This document shows positions 12,879 to 24,979 of a stretch of DNA of 64,000 nt, piece after piece. Position 1 is the first letter of the stretch. Each line of letters starts with the position of its first letter. Made by a program: the position numbers and the translations under genes. Below the pieces are notes generated by a model. The model did no database searches, had not been told where the DNA came from, and saw only the letters and a list, made by a program, of their open reading frames with translations. The stretch lies in the NCBI RefSeq assembly GCF_003944795.1, contig NZ_RWBG01000002.1, positions 124,001 to 188,000 of the forward strand. The letters are read 5' to 3'. Source of the DNA: Mangrovimonas spongiae (GTDB taxonomy: Bacteria; Bacteroidota; Bacteroidia; Flavobacteriales; Flavobacteriaceae).

Positions 12879-13463
12879 CTAGTTTTCGAGTGCTAATTGA
12901 CTTTTTATTTTACTTAAAAACTCTTTTGTTATACCTAAATAAGAAGCAATTAAATATTGTGGAATGCGCTGTTCTATTTTTGGATAAGTTTCTCTAAAAA
13001 ACACATATCTATCTTTAGCCGTCATGCTAAAATTCCTAATAATTCGTTTTTGCGATGCCACAAAAGCTCTTTCGATTATTTGTCTAAAAAAACGTTCCAT
13101 TTTAGGAATTTTTTCGAAAATCTCTTCAATAGAGTCTATATGAAATTGAATGGTTTCGGTATCTTCTAAACACTGCACATTAAAATCGGTTGGGCTTTGT
13201 GTACTAAAACTTCCTAAATCTGATGTCCACCAATCTTCAATAGAAAACATAATAATATGTTCTTGGCCTTCATCATCGACAAAAAACATTTTAGTACATC
13301 CTTTTGTAATAAAGCATTGCGCCTTGCTAACATCGCCTTGCTGTAGTATATATTGTCCTTTTAAATACTTACGATATACCAGTTTGCTAACCAAGAATTC
13401 GGTCTCTTCTTGGGTTAACGACACATAGTTTTTCATGTAATTTAAAAGTGGCTGAAAATTCAT
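12879..13463 (-). CDS. Crp/Fnr family transcriptional regulator (cyclic nucleotide-binding fold)
   Basis: A 194-aa regulator with an N-terminal cNMP-type beta-roll (about 20-120) and a C-terminal winged helix. The HTH part reads IPQYLIASYLGITKEFLSKIKSQL, the shortened form common in Bacteroidota. No FNR-type cysteine cluster is visible. It has its own short upstream region after the acs terminator and is not clearly part of the acs operon. Effector and targets are unknown. Confidence 0.9.
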   Translation of the reverse strand: MNFQPLLNYMKNYVSLTQEETEFLVSKLVYRKYLKGQYILQQGDVSKAQCFITKGCTKMFFVDDEGQEHIIMFSIEDWWTSDLGSFSTQSPTDFNVQCLEDTETIQFHIDSIEEIFEKIPKMERFFRQIIERAFVASQKRIIRNFSMTAKDRYVFFRETYPKIEQRIPQYLIASYLGITKEFLSKIKSQLALEN

Positions 13464-17636: not shown

Positions 17637-18002
17637 TTAATTAAGTAAATCTAGTACTTCCGAAATTATTTTCTTTATTGAAAACGGCTTAGTTAAATAT
17701 TTATCTGCTCCTAGTTTTAAGCCTTTCTCAATATCTGAAGCTTTATGCTTTGCAGTTAAAAATACCACTTTTACTTGTGATAAACTGTCTTTTTTCTTGA
17801 TAAATTCTAAGGTTTCATAACCATCTACCTTAGGCATCATAATATCCAATAATATAACATTAGGAATATTAGTTTCTAAAATTTGTAATGCTTCGGTTCC
17901 ATCTCTAGCAATAAACACTTCAAAGCCTTGTTTTTTAAAGGCATATTCTAAGGTCATTACTATATTTGGCTCATCATCAACAATTAAAATTTTCCTATTC
18001 AT
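17637..18002 (-). CDS. Stand-alone response regulator receiver (CheY-like)
   Basis: A 121-aa receiver domain only, with the acidic pair Asp9-Asp10, the phospho-acceptor Asp53 (LLDIMMPKVDG), the switch Thr in FLTAKH and the invariant Lys in LTKPF. No output domain follows. It lies 16 bp downstream of the symporter-kinase hybrid gene and so is its probable phosphorylation partner. In the proteobacterial CrbS/CrbR pair the regulator has a LuxR-type DNA-binding domain; here signalling must go through another protein. Confidence 0.92.
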   Translation of the reverse strand: MNRKILIVDDEPNIVMTLEYAFKKQGFEVFIARDGTEALQILETNIPNVILLDIMMPKVDGYETLEFIKKKDSLSQVKVVFLTAKHKASDIEKGLKLGADKYLTKPFSIKKIISEVLDLLN

Positions 18003-18018
18003 ATATTGGGGTTACAAG

Positions 18019-20706
18019 TTACTTAAATGGTAATTTAAAAACAAACTTTGCACCATTTTTATAGGTTTCATCAACCCAGATGTTTCCTTGGTGTTGCTCT
18101 ATAATCTGTTTACAAATAGCCAATCCTAAACCGCTACCTTCTGGTTTTTTGGTATTTTGATTTTTGGATTGATAAAACTTATCGAAAATAAAACCAATGT
18201 CTTCAGGAGGAATACCATTTCCGTTATCTGATACCGAAAACTCGATACTCTTATTTGCCATTTTGTAATCGATAGTAATAACGCCATGTTTTTCTGGGCA
18301 AAATTTTATAGCATTAGACAGTAAATTTGTAACTACTTGCAGCAAACGGTCTTGATCAAACTCTAAAAATAGTTTATGCGGATTCTTGTTGACTATTTTC
18401 ACCTCTTTTTTATCGGCTAGGTGTTTTACGACCTGAATTGCCTTTTTTACAACTTGCTGTATATCGTTATTTTTAACATCGAGTGTCGTTTTTCCTTTTG
18501 ATAGTTTTTCGAAATCTAAAATACTATTTATTAACCTTGATAACCTATCGCTATCCTGCAAGATATTACTTAAAAACTGTTCGCGTATCTGTTCTGGCAT
18601 ATCATTATCTTCCAAAACCAATTCTGTTGATGCTCTAATTCCTGTAATTGGTGTTTTTAACTCATGTGCTACAGTGTCTAAAAACTCATCCTTTTGCTGG
18701 TCTTTATTTAACAATTCTAAATTAGCTTCCCGTAATTGATTTGTTAAACTGGTTAAAGCTGCCGACTTTTCACGAAGCATTTTATTTCTTGCTATGGTTT
18801 CTTTTGACTCCTCTAAAACCTTCAACACCTCTACCAAGCTTACTTCTTCTTCTTTAACAACACTTGAAATTAGTATTTTGGCAGATGCACTTCCTATGGT
18901 TCCTGTTAATAGCTTTTCAGAAAAGTTAATTAATCTAGCATCGGCTATTTGGGTATCTTTTGGTAAATTATATTTCGTAAAAAATACTTTTAGGGCTCGA
19001 TTAGCTTCTCTTTCTCCTAAAAATTTTTCTAATACATTTTTGATATCGGCCACATAAGCCTCACCCTTCCATACTAACGCATTATCTTGTAGCGAAGAAT
19101 AATTTTTACTATCCACAAACATTTCGGCATAATTTCGTTCTCGATAATTCCCACGATACACCAATGATAACACAAGATAAAACGCTAAGTTGAAGCTTAA
19201 GCTCCAAAACATAGCATGTGCGTATGGATTAAGAAAATTAATTCCAAATAGCTCATAAGGTTTTAAGTATTCTATTCCAAACAACCCATTTTCAACAAAA
19301 CTATTTGACCCCGATATAATGTTGATTGTAAATGGTAAAATTAAAGTATAAATCGTTATTAAAAATCCTATTACAATGCCAACTATGGAAGCTCTTGCAG
19401 AGCCACGATTCCAATACAAACCAAGAAAAAAAGATGGTGCTAACTGAGCCACAATAACAAAGGATACCAAGCCAATTGAAATTAAAGAACTCTCTATAGA
19501 AAAATTGTAATAAAAAACATAAGCTAAAATAATTATTAAGAAAATAGAAATACGACGAATATTCTTGATGTAGTACGCATTTTTTTCAGGGTGATTTCTA
19601 ATAAACTTATCTAAAAATCCATAAGGAATAATTAGATTGTTACTTACCATTGTTGATAAAGCTAAGGTTGAAACAACTACCATTGAAATTACCGCCGAAA
19701 ATCCGCCTAAAAAAACCAACATGGCTAAAAACACATTATCTTGACTTAGCGGTAATAATAAGGTGTAATATTCTGCATGAGCTACATCGCCTAACAACAA
19801 TCTTCCGCCAAATGCAATAAATACTACAAACAAATTAAACAGCAATAAATACAACGGGAACAACCAAATAGCTGTTTTTAAATGCTTTTCTCTTGTGTTT
19901 TCTATAACACTGATTTGAAATTGCCTAGGTAAAAGAAAAATAGCGAAAAAGGATAAGGCTATCATGAAAAACCAATTAAGGCCTCCTTCTAAATTAGGTA
20001 TCGTGGTTAAGGTTTCAATATTATCTATTTCAGAAAATTTTGTTAGTACATCTTGTGGTCCATCAAATAACCAATAAGTCACATAAACCCCTACAATTAG
20101 GAAGAACCCTATTTTAAAAATGGATTCCAACGCCACAGTAGCTACAATACCACGATGCTTTTCTGATGCATCGGTTGCTTGAGTTCCAAAAAATGTGGCA
20201 AAAACAGCTAATAAAAACGCGATGTAGAATGTTGAATCGTCCCATATACTTGTAGATATGTAACTGGTTTCATCTGCGATAACTTCAAAACTTCCAGATA
20301 TTGCCTTTAGTTGCAATGAAATGTAAGGCAAAATAGCTAAGAAACAAATAATAGTAATTAAAGCTCCTAGAAACCTATTGTTACCATAACGTAGTGAAAT
20401 AAAATCGGCAATCGAAGAAATATTATGTTGCTTAGAAATACGTATTATCTTTCTTAAAACAACAACCCAAAGTGGTGCTGCAATTACAGGACCTAAGTAA
20501 ATTGGCAAGAAATCTACACCAGAGTTAGCCGCAATACCTATACTCCCATAATATGTCCATGCGGTACAATAAACAGCCAGAGATAAAGCATAAACATAAG
20601 GGTTGTTTACCCATTTACTTTTTGTGTTTCTTTCCGTTTTAAAGGCTAAGAAGAACAAAAAGGCTAAATAAAAAACAATAATGGTTATTAGAATGTAATT
20701 ACTCAT
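18019..20706 (-). CDS. Sodium:solute symporter-histidine kinase hybrid (CbrA/CrbS-like sensor)
   Basis: An 895-aa protein in which a SSS-type transporter (about 13 membrane segments, residues 1-540) is fused to a linker and a histidine kinase. The H-box FLDTVAHELKTPITG lies near residue 680, followed by N (NAIKFCPEKHG), G1 (DNGNGI) and G2 (GSGLGLAI) boxes. Homologues such as CrbS sense acetate-linked signals and control acs. The setting (with a receiver, prpE and acs in the same unit) fits that role. It overlaps the preceding 64-aa membrane protein gene by 8 bp. Confidence 0.93.
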   Translation of the reverse strand: MSNYILITIIVFYLAFLFFLAFKTERNTKSKWVNNPYVYALSLAVYCTAWTYYGSIGIAANSGVDFLPIYLGPVIAAPLWVVVLRKIIRISKQHNISSIADFISLRYGNNRFLGALITIICFLAILPYISLQLKAISGSFEVIADETSYISTSIWDDSTFYIAFLLAVFATFFGTQATDASEKHRGIVATVALESIFKIGFFLIVGVYVTYWLFDGPQDVLTKFSEIDNIETLTTIPNLEGGLNWFFMIALSFFAIFLLPRQFQISVIENTREKHLKTAIWLFPLYLLLFNLFVVFIAFGGRLLLGDVAHAEYYTLLLPLSQDNVFLAMLVFLGGFSAVISMVVVSTLALSTMVSNNLIIPYGFLDKFIRNHPEKNAYYIKNIRRISIFLIIILAYVFYYNFSIESSLISIGLVSFVIVAQLAPSFFLGLYWNRGSARASIVGIVIGFLITIYTLILPFTINIISGSNSFVENGLFGIEYLKPYELFGINFLNPYAHAMFWSLSFNLAFYLVLSLVYRGNYRERNYAEMFVDSKNYSSLQDNALVWKGEAYVADIKNVLEKFLGEREANRALKVFFTKYNLPKDTQIADARLINFSEKLLTGTIGSASAKILISSVVKEEEVSLVEVLKVLEESKETIARNKMLREKSAALTSLTNQLREANLELLNKDQQKDEFLDTVAHELKTPITGIRASTELVLEDNDMPEQIREQFLSNILQDSDRLSRLINSILDFEKLSKGKTTLDVKNNDIQQVVKKAIQVVKHLADKKEVKIVNKNPHKLFLEFDQDRLLQVVTNLLSNAIKFCPEKHGVITIDYKMANKSIEFSVSDNGNGIPPEDIGFIFDKFYQSKNQNTKKPEGSGLGLAICKQIIEQHQGNIWVDETYKNGAKFVFKLPFK

Positions 20707-20988: not shown

Positions 20989-22767
20989 TTAGTGGTGTGT
21001 TGCTTCACCTGCGCCACTTGGAATTCGTATATGCTCTACTATTTCCTGCACTTCTTGTGGTGGCGGTGGTGTTAATCTTGAAACAACTACAGAAACTACC
21101 ACATTAACAATCATGGCTACAGTACCAAAACCTTCTGGAGAGGTACCAAACCACCATTCGCTTGACGGTCTTGGTTCAAAAACACCAATTAAACCTGTTT
21201 TATAGCGTACCATATAAAATAACATTAATACAATACCTACAACCATTCCTGAGATGGCGCCTTGCTTATTCATGCGTTTATCAAAAATTCCGAGAATAAT
21301 GGCTGGGAAGAAAGATGCTGCTGCCAAACCAAAGGCCAAAGCAACTACTGCCGCTACAAAACCAGGAGGGTAAATCCCAAATAACCCTGCAATAATAATA
21401 GCTACTAAAATAGCTAATCTTGCTGCCCATAGTTCGCCTTTTTCTGAAATATCTGGTTTAAGTTGTTTCTTAATCAAATCATGTGATATGGATGTTGAAA
21501 TTACCAATAATAATCCTGCTGCTGTTGATAATGCTGCTGCTAAACCACCAGCTGCAACTAAAGCTATTACCCAATTAGGCAACTTCGCAATTTCTGGGTT
21601 GGCAAGTACCATAATATCTCTATCTACATATAATTCATTCTCTGTGTTTGCATTCACATTTTTTAACACACGTTCGCCGTGAGTTCCTCTACCATCTGAA
21701 AATAACGGATTTTTCCCTTCAATAGCACTTCCAGCAACATATTGAATTTTTCCATCACCATTTTTATCACTCCAACCAATTAAACCCGTATTCTCCCAGT
21801 TTTTAAACCATTCAGGAACTTCAGTATATTTTGTGTTACTTACAGTATCGATTAAGTTAGTTCTGGCAAAAACAGAAATGGCTGGCGCTGTTGTATAAAG
21901 AATAGCGATTAAAAACAATGCATATCCTGCCGACTTTCTAGCATCTTTAACCTTTGGCACTGTAAAAAACCTTACAATTACATGCGGTAATCCAGCTGTT
22001 CCAACCATTAAGGCTAGTGTAATGGCAAACACATCCCAAGTCGATTTTGTACCACTAGTGTATTCATTAAATCCTAATTCTGTATGCAACGTATCTAATT
22101 TATCTAAGAGATACATTCCACCTTCTAGTTTGCCTCCCATTCCTATTTGAGGAATTGGGTTCCCAGTCATTTGCATTGAGATAAAGAATGCAGGCACCAT
22201 AAACGCAAATATTAACACACAATACTGTGCTACTTGCGTGTAAGTAATTCCTTTCATTCCTCCTAAGAAAGCAAAGACCAATACTACAGCCATACCAATA
22301 ACAACACCTGTATTAATATCTACTTGAAGGAATTGTGAAAACACAATACCAACGCCTCTCATTTGTCCAGCTACATAGGTAAATGACACAATTAAAGCAC
22401 ATATAACAGCTACTGTTCTTGCGCCGTTAGAATAATAACGATCACCTATAAAATCTGGCACTGTAAATTTTCCAAATTTTCGTAAATAGGGCGCTAATAA
22501 TAGCGCTAAAAGCACATAGCCTCCTGTCCATCCCATAAGGTAAACAGAGCCATCATATCCTGCAAAAGAAATAATTCCTGCCATTGATATAAAAGACGCT
22601 GCGCTCATCCAATCGGCTGCAGTCGCCATTCCATTTGCTAAAGGAGAAACCCCTCCACCAGCTACATAAAAATCTTTTGTAGAGCCTGCCCTAGCCCAAA
22701 TAGCAATTCCAAAATATAGGGCAAAAGTTACTCCTACTAATATCCAAGTCCACGTTTGTACACTCAT
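20989..22767 (-). CDS. Cation:acetate-type sodium symporter (ActP-like, VC_2705 subfamily)
   Basis: A 592-aa SSS-family permease with about 13 membrane segments, an N-terminal VAGGGVSPLANGMATAADW signature and the conserved ISMAGI region of acetate/propionate symporters. The DUF4212 gene lies 24 bp upstream, which is the usual small subunit of this subfamily. Together they import a short-chain carboxylate with sodium; acetate is inferred from the nearby acs. A long periplasmic loop of about 100 residues (about 320-420) is present. Confidence 0.92.
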   Translation of the reverse strand: MSVQTWTWILVGVTFALYFGIAIWARAGSTKDFYVAGGGVSPLANGMATAADWMSAASFISMAGIISFAGYDGSVYLMGWTGGYVLLALLLAPYLRKFGKFTVPDFIGDRYYSNGARTVAVICALIVSFTYVAGQMRGVGIVFSQFLQVDINTGVVIGMAVVLVFAFLGGMKGITYTQVAQYCVLIFAFMVPAFFISMQMTGNPIPQIGMGGKLEGGMYLLDKLDTLHTELGFNEYTSGTKSTWDVFAITLALMVGTAGLPHVIVRFFTVPKVKDARKSAGYALFLIAILYTTAPAISVFARTNLIDTVSNTKYTEVPEWFKNWENTGLIGWSDKNGDGKIQYVAGSAIEGKNPLFSDGRGTHGERVLKNVNANTENELYVDRDIMVLANPEIAKLPNWVIALVAAGGLAAALSTAAGLLLVISTSISHDLIKKQLKPDISEKGELWAARLAILVAIIIAGLFGIYPPGFVAAVVALAFGLAAASFFPAIILGIFDKRMNKQGAISGMVVGIVLMLFYMVRYKTGLIGVFEPRPSSEWWFGTSPEGFGTVAMIVNVVVSVVVSRLTPPPPQEVQEIVEHIRIPSGAGEATHH

Positions 22768-22791: not shown

Positions 22792-23052
22792 CTACTCGTC
22801 GAAGCCGTATTTTTTATCTAATTTGTTCATAAGTCTTACGTAAACGAAAATGAGTATTACGAATACATAGATGGATCCTTGTTGTGCGAACCAAAAGCCT
22901 AGTTTAAATCCGCCTAACCTAATATTGTTTAAAGCATCTTTAAACAATATTCCAGCGCCATAAGAAACCACAAACCAAACACTTAGTAAAATAATTAAGT
23001 ACTTTAAGTTTTCTTTCCAATACGCCGTTGCATGTTTTTGTTTATCTGTCAT
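22792..23052 (-). CDS. DUF4212 protein, small subunit of the sodium:solute symporter
   Basis: An 86-aa protein with two membrane segments (about 17-34 and 56-76) and the family pattern YWKENLKY...GFWFAQQGSIYVFV...YVRLMNKLDKKYG. DUF4212 proteins are always found beside symporters of the VC_2705 type. The gene sits 12 bp after the porin and 24 bp before the symporter. Confidence 0.94.
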   Translation of the reverse strand: MTDKQKHATAYWKENLKYLIILLSVWFVVSYGAGILFKDALNNIRLGGFKLGFWFAQQGSIYVFVILIFVYVRLMNKLDKKYGFDE

Positions 23053-23064
23053 ATCTGTTAGTTT

Positions 23065-24315
23065 TTATAAATAAATCATTGCTTGAAGGGTTACAGAACC
23101 TACATTAGAATCTCCAAATTTCTGATTCTTATATTCCAATGTTAGTTTTGAATTGTGACCACTGAAATATGCATTAGCTCCTATTCCTAAAACATCTCTA
23201 TTATCATTAGCGCCATCGTAACTATTTGAGGCAAAAGAAACATAAGGCTGAAATCTAGGTTTTGTCACATCTCCTGGTAATACATATCCTACGTGACCAT
23301 AAATCATAGAGCCTGTTCCGTAAGCACTATATAAATAGTCTTCGCCATAATCGTTTGATTGAAATGTTGCGTACGCAGTAATGGCACTTCCATTTTCCCC
23401 TAAAGGACTATCGTAAAAAGCATCAATAGCAAAAATAGATACATCCTCGCCTTTTAGTTCTGTTCCTTCCATTCTAACAGCGCCTTCTGGATGTAAAAAG
23501 AATCCTGCTCCAACATTAAATATGCGTTTTCCTCCTAGATAAGTTCCTACTTTATAGGGTAAAAAATTAGATTCTTCATCTAAGAAATGATAATCAAAAT
23601 ACCCTGCATAACACTTACCGGCATCTTTAGAGCCTAATAATTCTCGTCCGGCATAATATGTTGTGTTTTCTGAAATATTTGGACTTCCATCGGCATTATA
23701 AGCTACTCTATTTTGAACATCTAAGGAGTTTGAAATAGCATCATTAATAGCCAATCGGTATTGCAACTTCCCAATTTTTCCTTTAGCAAAAACACCCATG
23801 TGTCTCGCAAACTGGTCTGAAAGCCCAATTGTAGCCCATGATTGACGATTATTATCCATCGTCATCATATTTAACGTACTTTGATTGTTAAGTCGGGAAA
23901 TACCATTAAAATAATGCAAACCACCACCAATGGAGTGATTTTTAGTAATGTTGTATTGTGCCCAAACATCGTGAAAGAAAAGTTGAGAATTGTTTCCTGT
24001 TCCTACAGCACTCATATTGGATGCGTTTAAGCTATTTAATCCAAAATGTGTTAAAATGAGAAATTTGTCATTAATCTGCGCATACATTAAAACTCTTGCG
24101 CGCCGTAAGTTAAAATTTAGTTTACTGGATTCTTCTGGAACATCATCGCTGTAGGATCCTTGAACCTGAGCCCAAGATAAGATACGAAAGTACTTTTTAC
24201 CTTCTTCATCAAATTTCACCTTAAATCCGCCATTATAATCTGGAGAACCTTGTGAAAACATAAACTGGCTGAAAAAAAAGATACTTCCAGCCAGTAAATA
24301 CAGTGTTTTTCTCAT
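23065..24315 (-). CDS. Outer-membrane porin, first gene of the acetate uptake unit
   Basis: A 416-aa protein with a signal peptide (LYLLAGSIFFFSQFMFSQG, cut about residue 22) and a beta-barrel-like remainder rich in alternating aromatic/polar strands, with an arginine-rich FNLRRARVLMYAQ segment as in phosphate-selective-type porins and a final aromatic strand. It probably lets small carboxylates cross the outer membrane. Its mRNA start lies in long inverted repeats (see 24297-24417). Confidence 0.82.
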   Translation of the reverse strand: MRKTLYLLAGSIFFFSQFMFSQGSPDYNGGFKVKFDEEGKKYFRILSWAQVQGSYSDDVPEESSKLNFNLRRARVLMYAQINDKFLILTHFGLNSLNASNMSAVGTGNNSQLFFHDVWAQYNITKNHSIGGGLHYFNGISRLNNQSTLNMMTMDNNRQSWATIGLSDQFARHMGVFAKGKIGKLQYRLAINDAISNSLDVQNRVAYNADGSPNISENTTYYAGRELLGSKDAGKCYAGYFDYHFLDEESNFLPYKVGTYLGGKRIFNVGAGFFLHPEGAVRMEGTELKGEDVSIFAIDAFYDSPLGENGSAITAYATFQSNDYGEDYLYSAYGTGSMIYGHVGYVLPGDVTKPRFQPYVSFASNSYDGANDNRDVLGIGANAYFSGHNSKLTLEYKNQKFGDSNVGSVTLQAMIYL

Positions 24316-24417
24316 AAGTTTTAAAAAGATTAGTTAATTAACATTATGGTTTTGTGTGCTTAGCTAATCTCTTAAAAACACTGTATTAACAAAAAATTAA
24401 TATATCTTTTTGTTAAT
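24297..24417 (-). promoter_or_regulatory. Leader of the porin operon with nested inverted repeats over the start codon
   Basis: A perfect 14-bp inverted repeat (AATACAGTGTTTTT at 24297-24310 with its complement at 24374-24387) brackets the porin start codon; the proximal arm is codons 2-7. Inside it, AGATTAG (24327-24333) pairs with CTAATCT (24364-24370). Just upstream, ATTAACAAAAA (24385-24395) and its complement (24407-24417) form another 11-bp repeat that shares three bases with the 14-bp arm. The layout suggests alternative leader structures or protein sites. No convincing TAnnTTTG element could be placed. Confidence 0.55.
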
Positions 24418-24426
24418 TATATATAT

Positions 24427-24846
24427 CTAATCTTTGAAACGCTCCCATTTTATTAACATAAACTTATCTCCAAGCTCTGTAACTAGCACTCCTGCCCCTG
24501 TTAAATTAGCTGCATCCGAGAAGTATTTAGCTAATTCTTGAGCGTTTAATATTTTATATGTAGGATGATAATCTGTTTTGTACGGTCTTTTAACGTTATA
24601 CTTTTTAACCCAGTTCATTATACTTACATGCGAGATTCCTAAAATGCGTTCAATCTCACGATACGTTAACCCCTCTAAATACAGCTGCAATGCTTTATTA
24701 ACGTAATAATCATCTATTTTTTTTCCTAGCTTATTTACCGTAAAAAAGTAACCACAACTTTTACATTTATAACGTTGCCTATTATTAACTATACCGCTTT
24801 TAATATAAGCATCGGAACCACAATTAGGACAAAGATTTATTTTCAT
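24427..24846 (-). CDS. IS1 InsA-like zinc-ribbon/HTH protein, probable domesticated regulator
   Basis: A 139-aa protein from the start MKINLCPNCGS (a start 13 codons further up is possible, but the preceding residues are poor). A four-cysteine zinc ribbon (CPNC...CKSC, residues 5-33) is followed by a helix-turn-helix (YREIERILGISHVSIMNWVKKY, about 63-85), as in IS1 InsA. The last 50 residues are unlike transposases and no DDE catalytic domain follows, nor terminal repeats. It therefore looks like a regulator derived from a transposase. It lies directly upstream of the porin operon on the same strand, suggesting that operon or its own gene as target. Confidence 0.75.
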   Translation of the reverse strand: MKINLCPNCGSDAYIKSGIVNNRQRYKCKSCGYFFTVNKLGKKIDDYYVNKALQLYLEGLTYREIERILGISHVSIMNWVKKYNVKRPYKTDYHPTYKILNAQELAKYFSDAANLTGAGVLVTELGDKFMLIKWERFKD

Positions 24847-24847
24847 G

Positions 24848-24877
24848 TATAGTAATTTTGCATAAATATAGTAATTT
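24848..24877 (-). repeat. Two 11-bp direct repeats before the InsA-like gene
   Basis: TATAGTAATTT occurs at 24848-24858 and again at 24867-24877, 19 bp apart start to start, just upstream of the preferred start codon (24846). This could be a binding site for the encoded HTH protein or overlap its promoter. Confidence 0.45.
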
Positions 24878-24979
24878 AGCAACATTAAAATATAAATACG
24901 TTAATTTAATTGATAAAAAAGTACGAACACCCTAATAAAACAAAGGCAAAAATGTCAAAATACTAACAAATAACCTATT

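Follow-up and report, generated by a model that had tools for sequence, protein, structure and literature searches.

An InsA-like regulator gene, its candidate operator boxes and a leader hairpin at the porin start look like one control unit in many Bacteroidia

The window, which is the whole stretch of 64,000 nucleotides that was analyzed, comes from a genome of the Flavobacteriaceae close to Mangrovimonas, and the nearest named porin locus is that of Mangrovimonas sp. ST2L15 (82% identity). On its minus strand, a gene for a regulator that resembles InsA of IS1 is followed by genes for an outer-membrane porin-like protein, a DUF4212 protein, a symporter of the VC_2705 type and a symporter-fused kinase, and then by those for a receiver-only regulator, a small protein and two AMP-binding ligases with the N-terminal domain of acetyl-CoA synthetases (Table 1). 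The porin has no match in Pfam. Because the operon holds the two ligases, the VC_2705-type symporter and a CrbS-like kinase, acetate is probably the substrate, judged solely by operon content. Among the genes that neighbor the receiver-only regulator, the only potential DNA-binding outputs found are the InsA-like protein and a cyclic-nucleotide-binding (Crp/Fnr-like) protein, the latter encoded at positions 12879-13463 of the minus strand next to a gene resembling acetyl-CoA synthetase.

Table 1. Genes, candidate operator boxes and leader elements of the porin locus, in positions of the window
Feature	Position	Strand	Remarks
Tandem candidate operator boxes TGCTAAATTnnTATA, 19 nt apart	24848..24882	-	End one base 5' of the regulator start codon
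InsA-like regulator, 139 aa, Zn ribbon and helix-turn-helix, without catalytic half	24427..24846	-	Start as kept in relatives
Candidate operator box A, 5' of the porin, inverted copy	24411..24425	+	One base past the regulator stop codon
Weaker candidate operator box B, at 21 nt from box A	24390..24404	+	11-bp repeat covers parts of A and B
Outer stem P1, 5' strand	24374..24388	-	Pairing partner: start-codon region in relatives, codons 2-7 here
Inner stem P2, 5' strand	24360..24373	-	Swap test z = -10.1, 45 representatives
Conserved loop GCACACAAAACC...	24344..24359	-	GCACA[CT]AA in 63/95 regulator-bearing leaders
Inner stem P2, 3' strand	24323..24338	-	Aligned leaders, swap test
14-bp stem, 3' strand, porin codons 2-7	24297..24310	-	L001 (window) and L002 only
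Outer-membrane porin-like protein, 416 aa	23065..24315	-	NCBIfam porin ExtI, E = 1.1e-19, below cut-off
DUF4212 symporter small subunit	22792..23052	-	PF13937, E = 1.4e-35
VC_2705-family sodium/solute symporter	20989..22767	-	TIGR03648, 868 bits (cut-off 321)
Symporter-fused sensor kinase, CrbS-like	18019..20706	-	HisKA and HATPase_c; SSF just under cut-off (22.1 vs 22.8 bits)
Receiver-only response regulator, without DNA-binding domain	17637..18002	-	PF00072, residues 5-116 of 121

The regulator resembles the N-terminal half of the IS1 transposase, with NCBIfam model NF033558 aligning its residues 6 to 114 to model positions 1 to 112 of 199 (E = 1.5e-21; 77 bits, below the cut-off of 100). 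The model for the Zn domain of IS1/IS1595, NF050000, matches above its cut-off, and Pfam finds HTH_23/HTH_28. The catalytic InsB half is absent: the reading frame stops at 139 amino acids, and the next gene is the porin. An alternative reading of the regulator, with 152 codons from position 24885, is also possible. A structure model of the protein (pLDDT 82, pTM 0.60) matched no PDB entry at E <= 0.001, and a PDB search with its sequence gave weak matches, the best at E = 0.02.

Of 110 homologous loci, 97 carry the regulator immediately 5' of the porin; some of the 110 overlap, since certain genomes came in by two tools (e.g., L003/L004 and L015/L086). The gap between the two genes, measured in 95 loci, spans 95 to 124 nt and is mostly 106 to 111 nt; four loci (L044, L051 and, truncated at contig ends, L077 and L082) offered no usable ATG and were excluded after this stage. 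Across the family, 36 of 249 genomes hold a match to the regulator at E <= 0.001, one each, and 24 of these matches are strong (E <= 1e-37). In the class, matches at E <= 1e-15 occur in 33 of 295 sampled genomes, of which 32 carry a single one and G346 carries four. A gene for a porin, a DUF4212 protein or a symporter lies downstream of the regulator homologue in 28 of 35 class-wide loci, including three in the family whose porin is of another type and one in which the DUF4212 and symporter genes follow directly. Many of the porin matches among these class-wide loci are only 30 to 37% identical, and since L129 supplied the second porin query, the match of that query there is trivial. The seven loci without such a downstream gene are L198, whose regulator homologue is 59% identical, and six of at most 53% identity, one of which lies at the end of its contig. 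More distant InsA-like proteins (L205 to L213; 31 to 47% identity) were seen by eye to precede unrelated genes, such as Rhs-like and C39-exporter-like ones, and some of their genes have TTGCTAA-TATA boxes upstream.

Just before the regulator start lie two tandem candidate operator boxes, with an element TATATTTA, resembling a -7 element, between or over them. This element was found at -25, -24 or -22, with 86 occurrences over 97 loci, and immediately 5' of the start codon the sequence TGCTAAATTnnTATATTTATGCTAAATTAATATA is strongly conserved in a set that was partly picked by a pattern. To train the operator model, boxes were taken from 73 loci that matched a pattern, of which 58 were distinct and 43 were used in alignment A3; because the boxes were picked by this pattern, their invariant letters are partly there by construction. 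The resulting model R2 found the tandem site of the window at E = 1.2e-9, with the genome's next best site at E = 0.08. Over 40 genomes, R2 placed a tandem site at E < 1e-7 in five, one each and at the regulator start; the porin-side boxes were not among its strong matches. In 65 of 93 loci, a matrix built from regulator-side boxes only ranks the best porin-side box above all other DNA of the locus on either strand; in 91 of the 93, that box is opposite in orientation to the regulator-side boxes. In the window, box A is the top match in its own 4.2-kb locus (score 7.6 with a matrix derived from the boxes of the regulator).

A perfect 14-bp stem (24297-24310 / 24374-24387), which the earlier note had described, pairs porin codons 2 to 7 with the leader, so that the start codon (24315-24313) is enclosed, and it extends to 17 nt at 94% (24294-24310 / 24374-24390). 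The inner 7-bp stem of that note (GATTAG/CTAATC) is likewise present, as part of a longer repeat (I3, 24318-24337 / 24360-24379, 85%), and so is its perfect 11-bp repeat (24385-24395 / 24407-24417), which has positions 24385-24387 in common with the outer stem. When the 121-nt stretch was shuffled 1,000 times with dinucleotides preserved, the longest perfect inverted repeat was 7.5 bp on average and 13 bp at most, with 14 never attained; the 14-bp repeat is thus beyond chance for its stretch. A repeat of at least 11 bp appeared in 21 of the 1,000 shuffles, so the 11-bp repeat by itself is unremarkable. The leader of the window has a predicted fold of -23.8 kcal/mol. The exact 14-bp stem with codons 2 to 7 occurs in two of 87 distinct leaders, that of the window and that of a locus whose porin is 99% identical; it is broken in L003 (82% identical), and the next longest pairing of its 5' strand with codons 2 to 10 is 9 bp.

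What most of the Flavobacteriaceae leaders examined keep is a hairpin made of the inner stem and the outer 5' strand, and relatives tend to pair that strand at the start codon instead of at codons 2 to 7. Common among the 87 aligned leaders are a 5' strand, a loop GCACACAAAACCAATT, an inner stem AGAGnTTAGTAGT / ACTAACTAAnC and an outer stem that ends on the start codon, e.g., ATTGTTTT / AAAACAAT(G). The loop is near invariant in two chosen sets, namely, A1 (53 of the 87 leaders, selected by eye) and A2, which also served for the hairpin model R1 (87 leaders minus 27 on account of loop letters and minus one duplicate core, leaving 59, of which 42 were used).

Covariation, which the earlier note had named as one check on its stems, came out on both sides. 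When arms were swapped among 45 representatives, own arms paired better than foreign ones for the inner stem (z = -10.1) and the outer stem (z = -5.7), with 0/5,000 permutations reaching either value, and the same held among 21 representatives below 62% identity (inner z = -7.1, 0/5,000; outer z = -3.0, 10/5,000). Wrongly matched arms also yield some signal, at z = -3.9 for the inner 5' strand with the start region and z = -1.9 for the outer 5' strand with the codons, in regions that partly overlap the correct partner. On the other side, clean double changes counted on the tree by rough parsimony are few: two in the inner stem, equaled by 12 of 200 random re-pairings, and one in the outer stem, equaled by 152 of 200. 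Counted by alignment column, paired cells, cells with changes on both sides and the covariation score all beat every one of 500 shuffles, and the number of pairs and of pair types did not. RNAalifold, run on the plain leader alignment, returned zero pairs. Strand asymmetry assessed without an alignment is modest (78 G-U vs 50 A-C), and only 19 of 42 leaders fold better as the sense strand than as its complement, although shuffles predict the sense strand to do worse.

The mean fold z is -2.05 at the porin start, compared with -0.64 at that of the regulator, -0.07 at that of DUF4212 and 0.37 at that of the symporter; 29 of 45 porin starts fall below -1.5, and the window leader (z = -4.1) is the joint strongest. 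Predicted accessibility of the porin start is only mildly low (0.39), compared with 0.48 in shuffles, 0.43 at the regulator start and 0.64 at the DUF4212 start. Among distant families, 8 of the 23 leaders folded (from 24 distant loci) have z below -2. In three loci from other families (L182, L183 and L185), stems of unrelated sequence lie over porin codons 1 to 5 (z = -5.7, -4.2 and -5.8). In the window's own genome, R1 has one strong match (E = 2.4e-10) and another at E = 0.24; in the family, under stricter filters, 24 of 299 genomes have matches at E <= 0.1, and 20 of these have one strong match each, at E <= 1.2e-7. At gathering score, Rfam has no match in positions 23900-24700 of the window, where the best hit over the leader is LhrC (31 of 110 bits, E = 0.011), and in nine loci searched likewise it finds only a tRNA, in L085. 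Given the few double changes on the tree, the RNAalifold result, the modest strand asymmetry, the scores of wrongly matched arms and the mild drop in accessibility, we regard the RNA reading as likely, not proven.

The boxes and the hairpin tend to be missing together with the regulator. In the 11 assessable loci without a regulator (10 of them distinct), the best box score has a median of -3.6 (range, -13.1 to 3.8) vs 9.6 in loci with the regulator, the GCACA[CT]AA loop is found in none vs 63/95, and fold z is -1.4 or higher in 10 (the exception being L110, at -2.0), whereas folding is this unremarkable in 15 of 45 regulator-bearing leaders (Fisher p = 0.001, ignoring kinship). Because three of the 11 have distant porins of 33 to 45% identity, this joint absence may partly mirror divergence. 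In five of the 11 (L037, L043, L076, L102 and L104), a Crp/Fnr-like dyad TGAY-N4-RTCA is found exactly 35 nt 5' of an nAnnTTTG element; the dyad occurs in one of the 95 regulator-bearing loci. With one pattern for both sets, nAnnTTTG upstream of the porin is present in 5/11 loci without vs 3/95 with the regulator, and the exact TAnnTTTG is present in one of each set. As far as sequence patterns can tell, this suggests that one activator has been swapped for another at the regulator-less porins, and such a presumed replacement favors activation at the porin.

Together, the regulator, its presumptive binding boxes and the hairpin at the porin start look like one control unit in many Bacteroidia, one that would occupy the region between a transposase-derived local regulator gene and the porin operon under its control. 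The finding is real and larger than the earlier note described, and where that note had left the choice between a leader RNA and an operator, the region appears to hold the two next to each other: a hairpin formed by the inner stem and the outer 5' strand, and a candidate operator of which the 11-bp repeat is a part. We propose, with a probability of about 0.6, that a local autoregulator controls transcription of the porin while a leader hairpin throttles its translation. The InsA-like protein would bind the tandem TGCTAAATTnnTATA boxes just 5' of its start codon, by which it would probably keep its own expression in check, and would also bind the inverted boxes past its own stop codon to govern porin transcription; there activation is the likeliest mode, since nearly all of these intergenic regions lack the usual TAnnTTTG element. 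The leader of the porin mRNA would form a hairpin composed of an inner stem, mostly a loop of the GCACACAAAA type and an outer stem pairing at the start codon or, in the species of the window, with codons 2 to 7. Translation would stay low until this hairpin opens; comparison among leaders backs the structure, and its effect is what we infer. In Flavobacterium johnsoniae, structure in the start region tunes translation (PMC6847099). The regulator-operator part of this proposal is the firmer one and in our view very probable; the RNA part is less firm, though still somewhat to be favored.

The most serious competitor, which we nevertheless find unlikely, has no dedicated switch at all: the hairpin would set a constant low rate of translation for a membrane protein, and only the regulator with its boxes would sense signals. 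The wide variation of hairpin sequence and register fits such a passive role, as do the missing Rfam family and the lack of an evident ligand pocket, whereas a loop kept in about two-thirds of the regulator-bearing leaders and in none without the regulator exceeds what a passive loop needs.

Alternatively, control could take place at the DNA level only, with the boxes serving the InsA-like protein, the stems forming a dyad for a second DNA-binding protein and RNA structure playing no part. In agreement with this, alignment columns show no strand asymmetry (60 G-U vs 55 A-C cells), and clean tree-aware double changes are few. However, loop anchor and start codon lie anywhere from 28 to 58 nt apart across the 87 leaders, which would break the helical phasing of a DNA dyad; moreover, arm sequences differ greatly between leaders (GATTAG/CTAATC in some, GGATGTT/AACATCC in others), whereas the boxes of the regulator itself do not change, and the fold z at the porin start speaks for RNA. 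We therefore judge control by DNA only to be improbable, more so than a constant rate.

The earlier note had read the 14-bp stem and the 11-bp repeat as mutually exclusive folds of a switch, and the three bases that the two have in common gave it a footing. Yet the halves of the 11-bp repeat do not coevolve (z = -0.5 in 45 representatives and -0.7 in 21), the shared bases adjoin the operator boxes, and the 14-bp stem is confined to two leaders. As the conserved element here consists of the flanking TGCTAAATTnnTATA-type boxes, this switch is left unsupported and very improbable. We rejected a short leader peptide (GTG CAC ACA AAA CCA ATT ...) controlling the operon as scarcely credible: although by eye many leaders have GTG or TTG before CACACAAAA and an in-frame stop after it, the start codon is not kept (AAG in L001, CCG in L088 and GGG in L062), and third codon positions appear, also by eye, as conserved as the others.

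The system that we favor, a DNA-binding autoregulator combined with a start-codon hairpin, has partial counterparts among known ones. InsA binds the ends of IS1 and represses its own promoter. The regulator shares with InsA and the N terminus of the IS1 transposase a Zn ribbon followed by a helix-turn-helix, over the residues matched above, and the boxes at its own start recall this binding and self-repression. Unlike IS1, it has no catalytic half, with the porin gene standing where insB would be, and it occurs as one match per family genome in a fixed position before one porin operon. Hairpins that lie over start codons and repress translation are familiar from RNA thermometers and the expression platforms of riboswitches; the porin leader resembles them in that a stable hairpin, whose pairing is maintained among relatives, sits at the start codon of the gene under control, and differs in lacking an Rfam match and a known ligand and in being accompanied by a local DNA-binding regulator. 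The operon also recalls CrbS/CrbR in its symporter-fused kinase, symporter and acetyl-CoA-synthetase-like genes. There, CrbR is an activator of the LuxR type with an inverted repeat, ACTU (PMC5715377), whereas the adjacent response regulator here is receiver-only. DNA-binding proteins of mobile elements serving in host gene control have been described, such as Ner/SfsB and antitoxin-derived factors, and the recruited factors in the available portion of that work are of the Xre or ribbon-helix-helix types, unlike the InsA-like regulator; the term "IS1" is absent from the same portion (PMC8987985). Among the matches listed in a search of open-licence PMC articles by title and beginning of abstract, no report of a host regulator of the IS1/InsA type or of such a leader was found.

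It is tempting to speculate further that one tamed InsA of IS1 recognizes both the DNA boxes and the GCACACAAAA-loop hairpin of the porin mRNA, possibly as the output of the pair of symporter-fused kinase and receiver-only regulator, which we consider a long shot. If such dual recognition were true, it would make up a self-contained local circuit acting on transcription and translation alike. Even apart from it, the arrangement suggests that the InsA-like regulator may be the DNA-binding output of a sensor kinase next to which stands a response regulator without one. Given that distant relatives of the regulator precede unrelated genes, the idea can be tested as a general one. A domesticated DNA-binding protein of the IS1 type would be a widespread local regulator in Bacteroidia, with a likely operator now named, and it would pair with a structured start-codon leader in a phylum whose mRNAs are devoid of Shine-Dalgarno sequences (PMC6847099).
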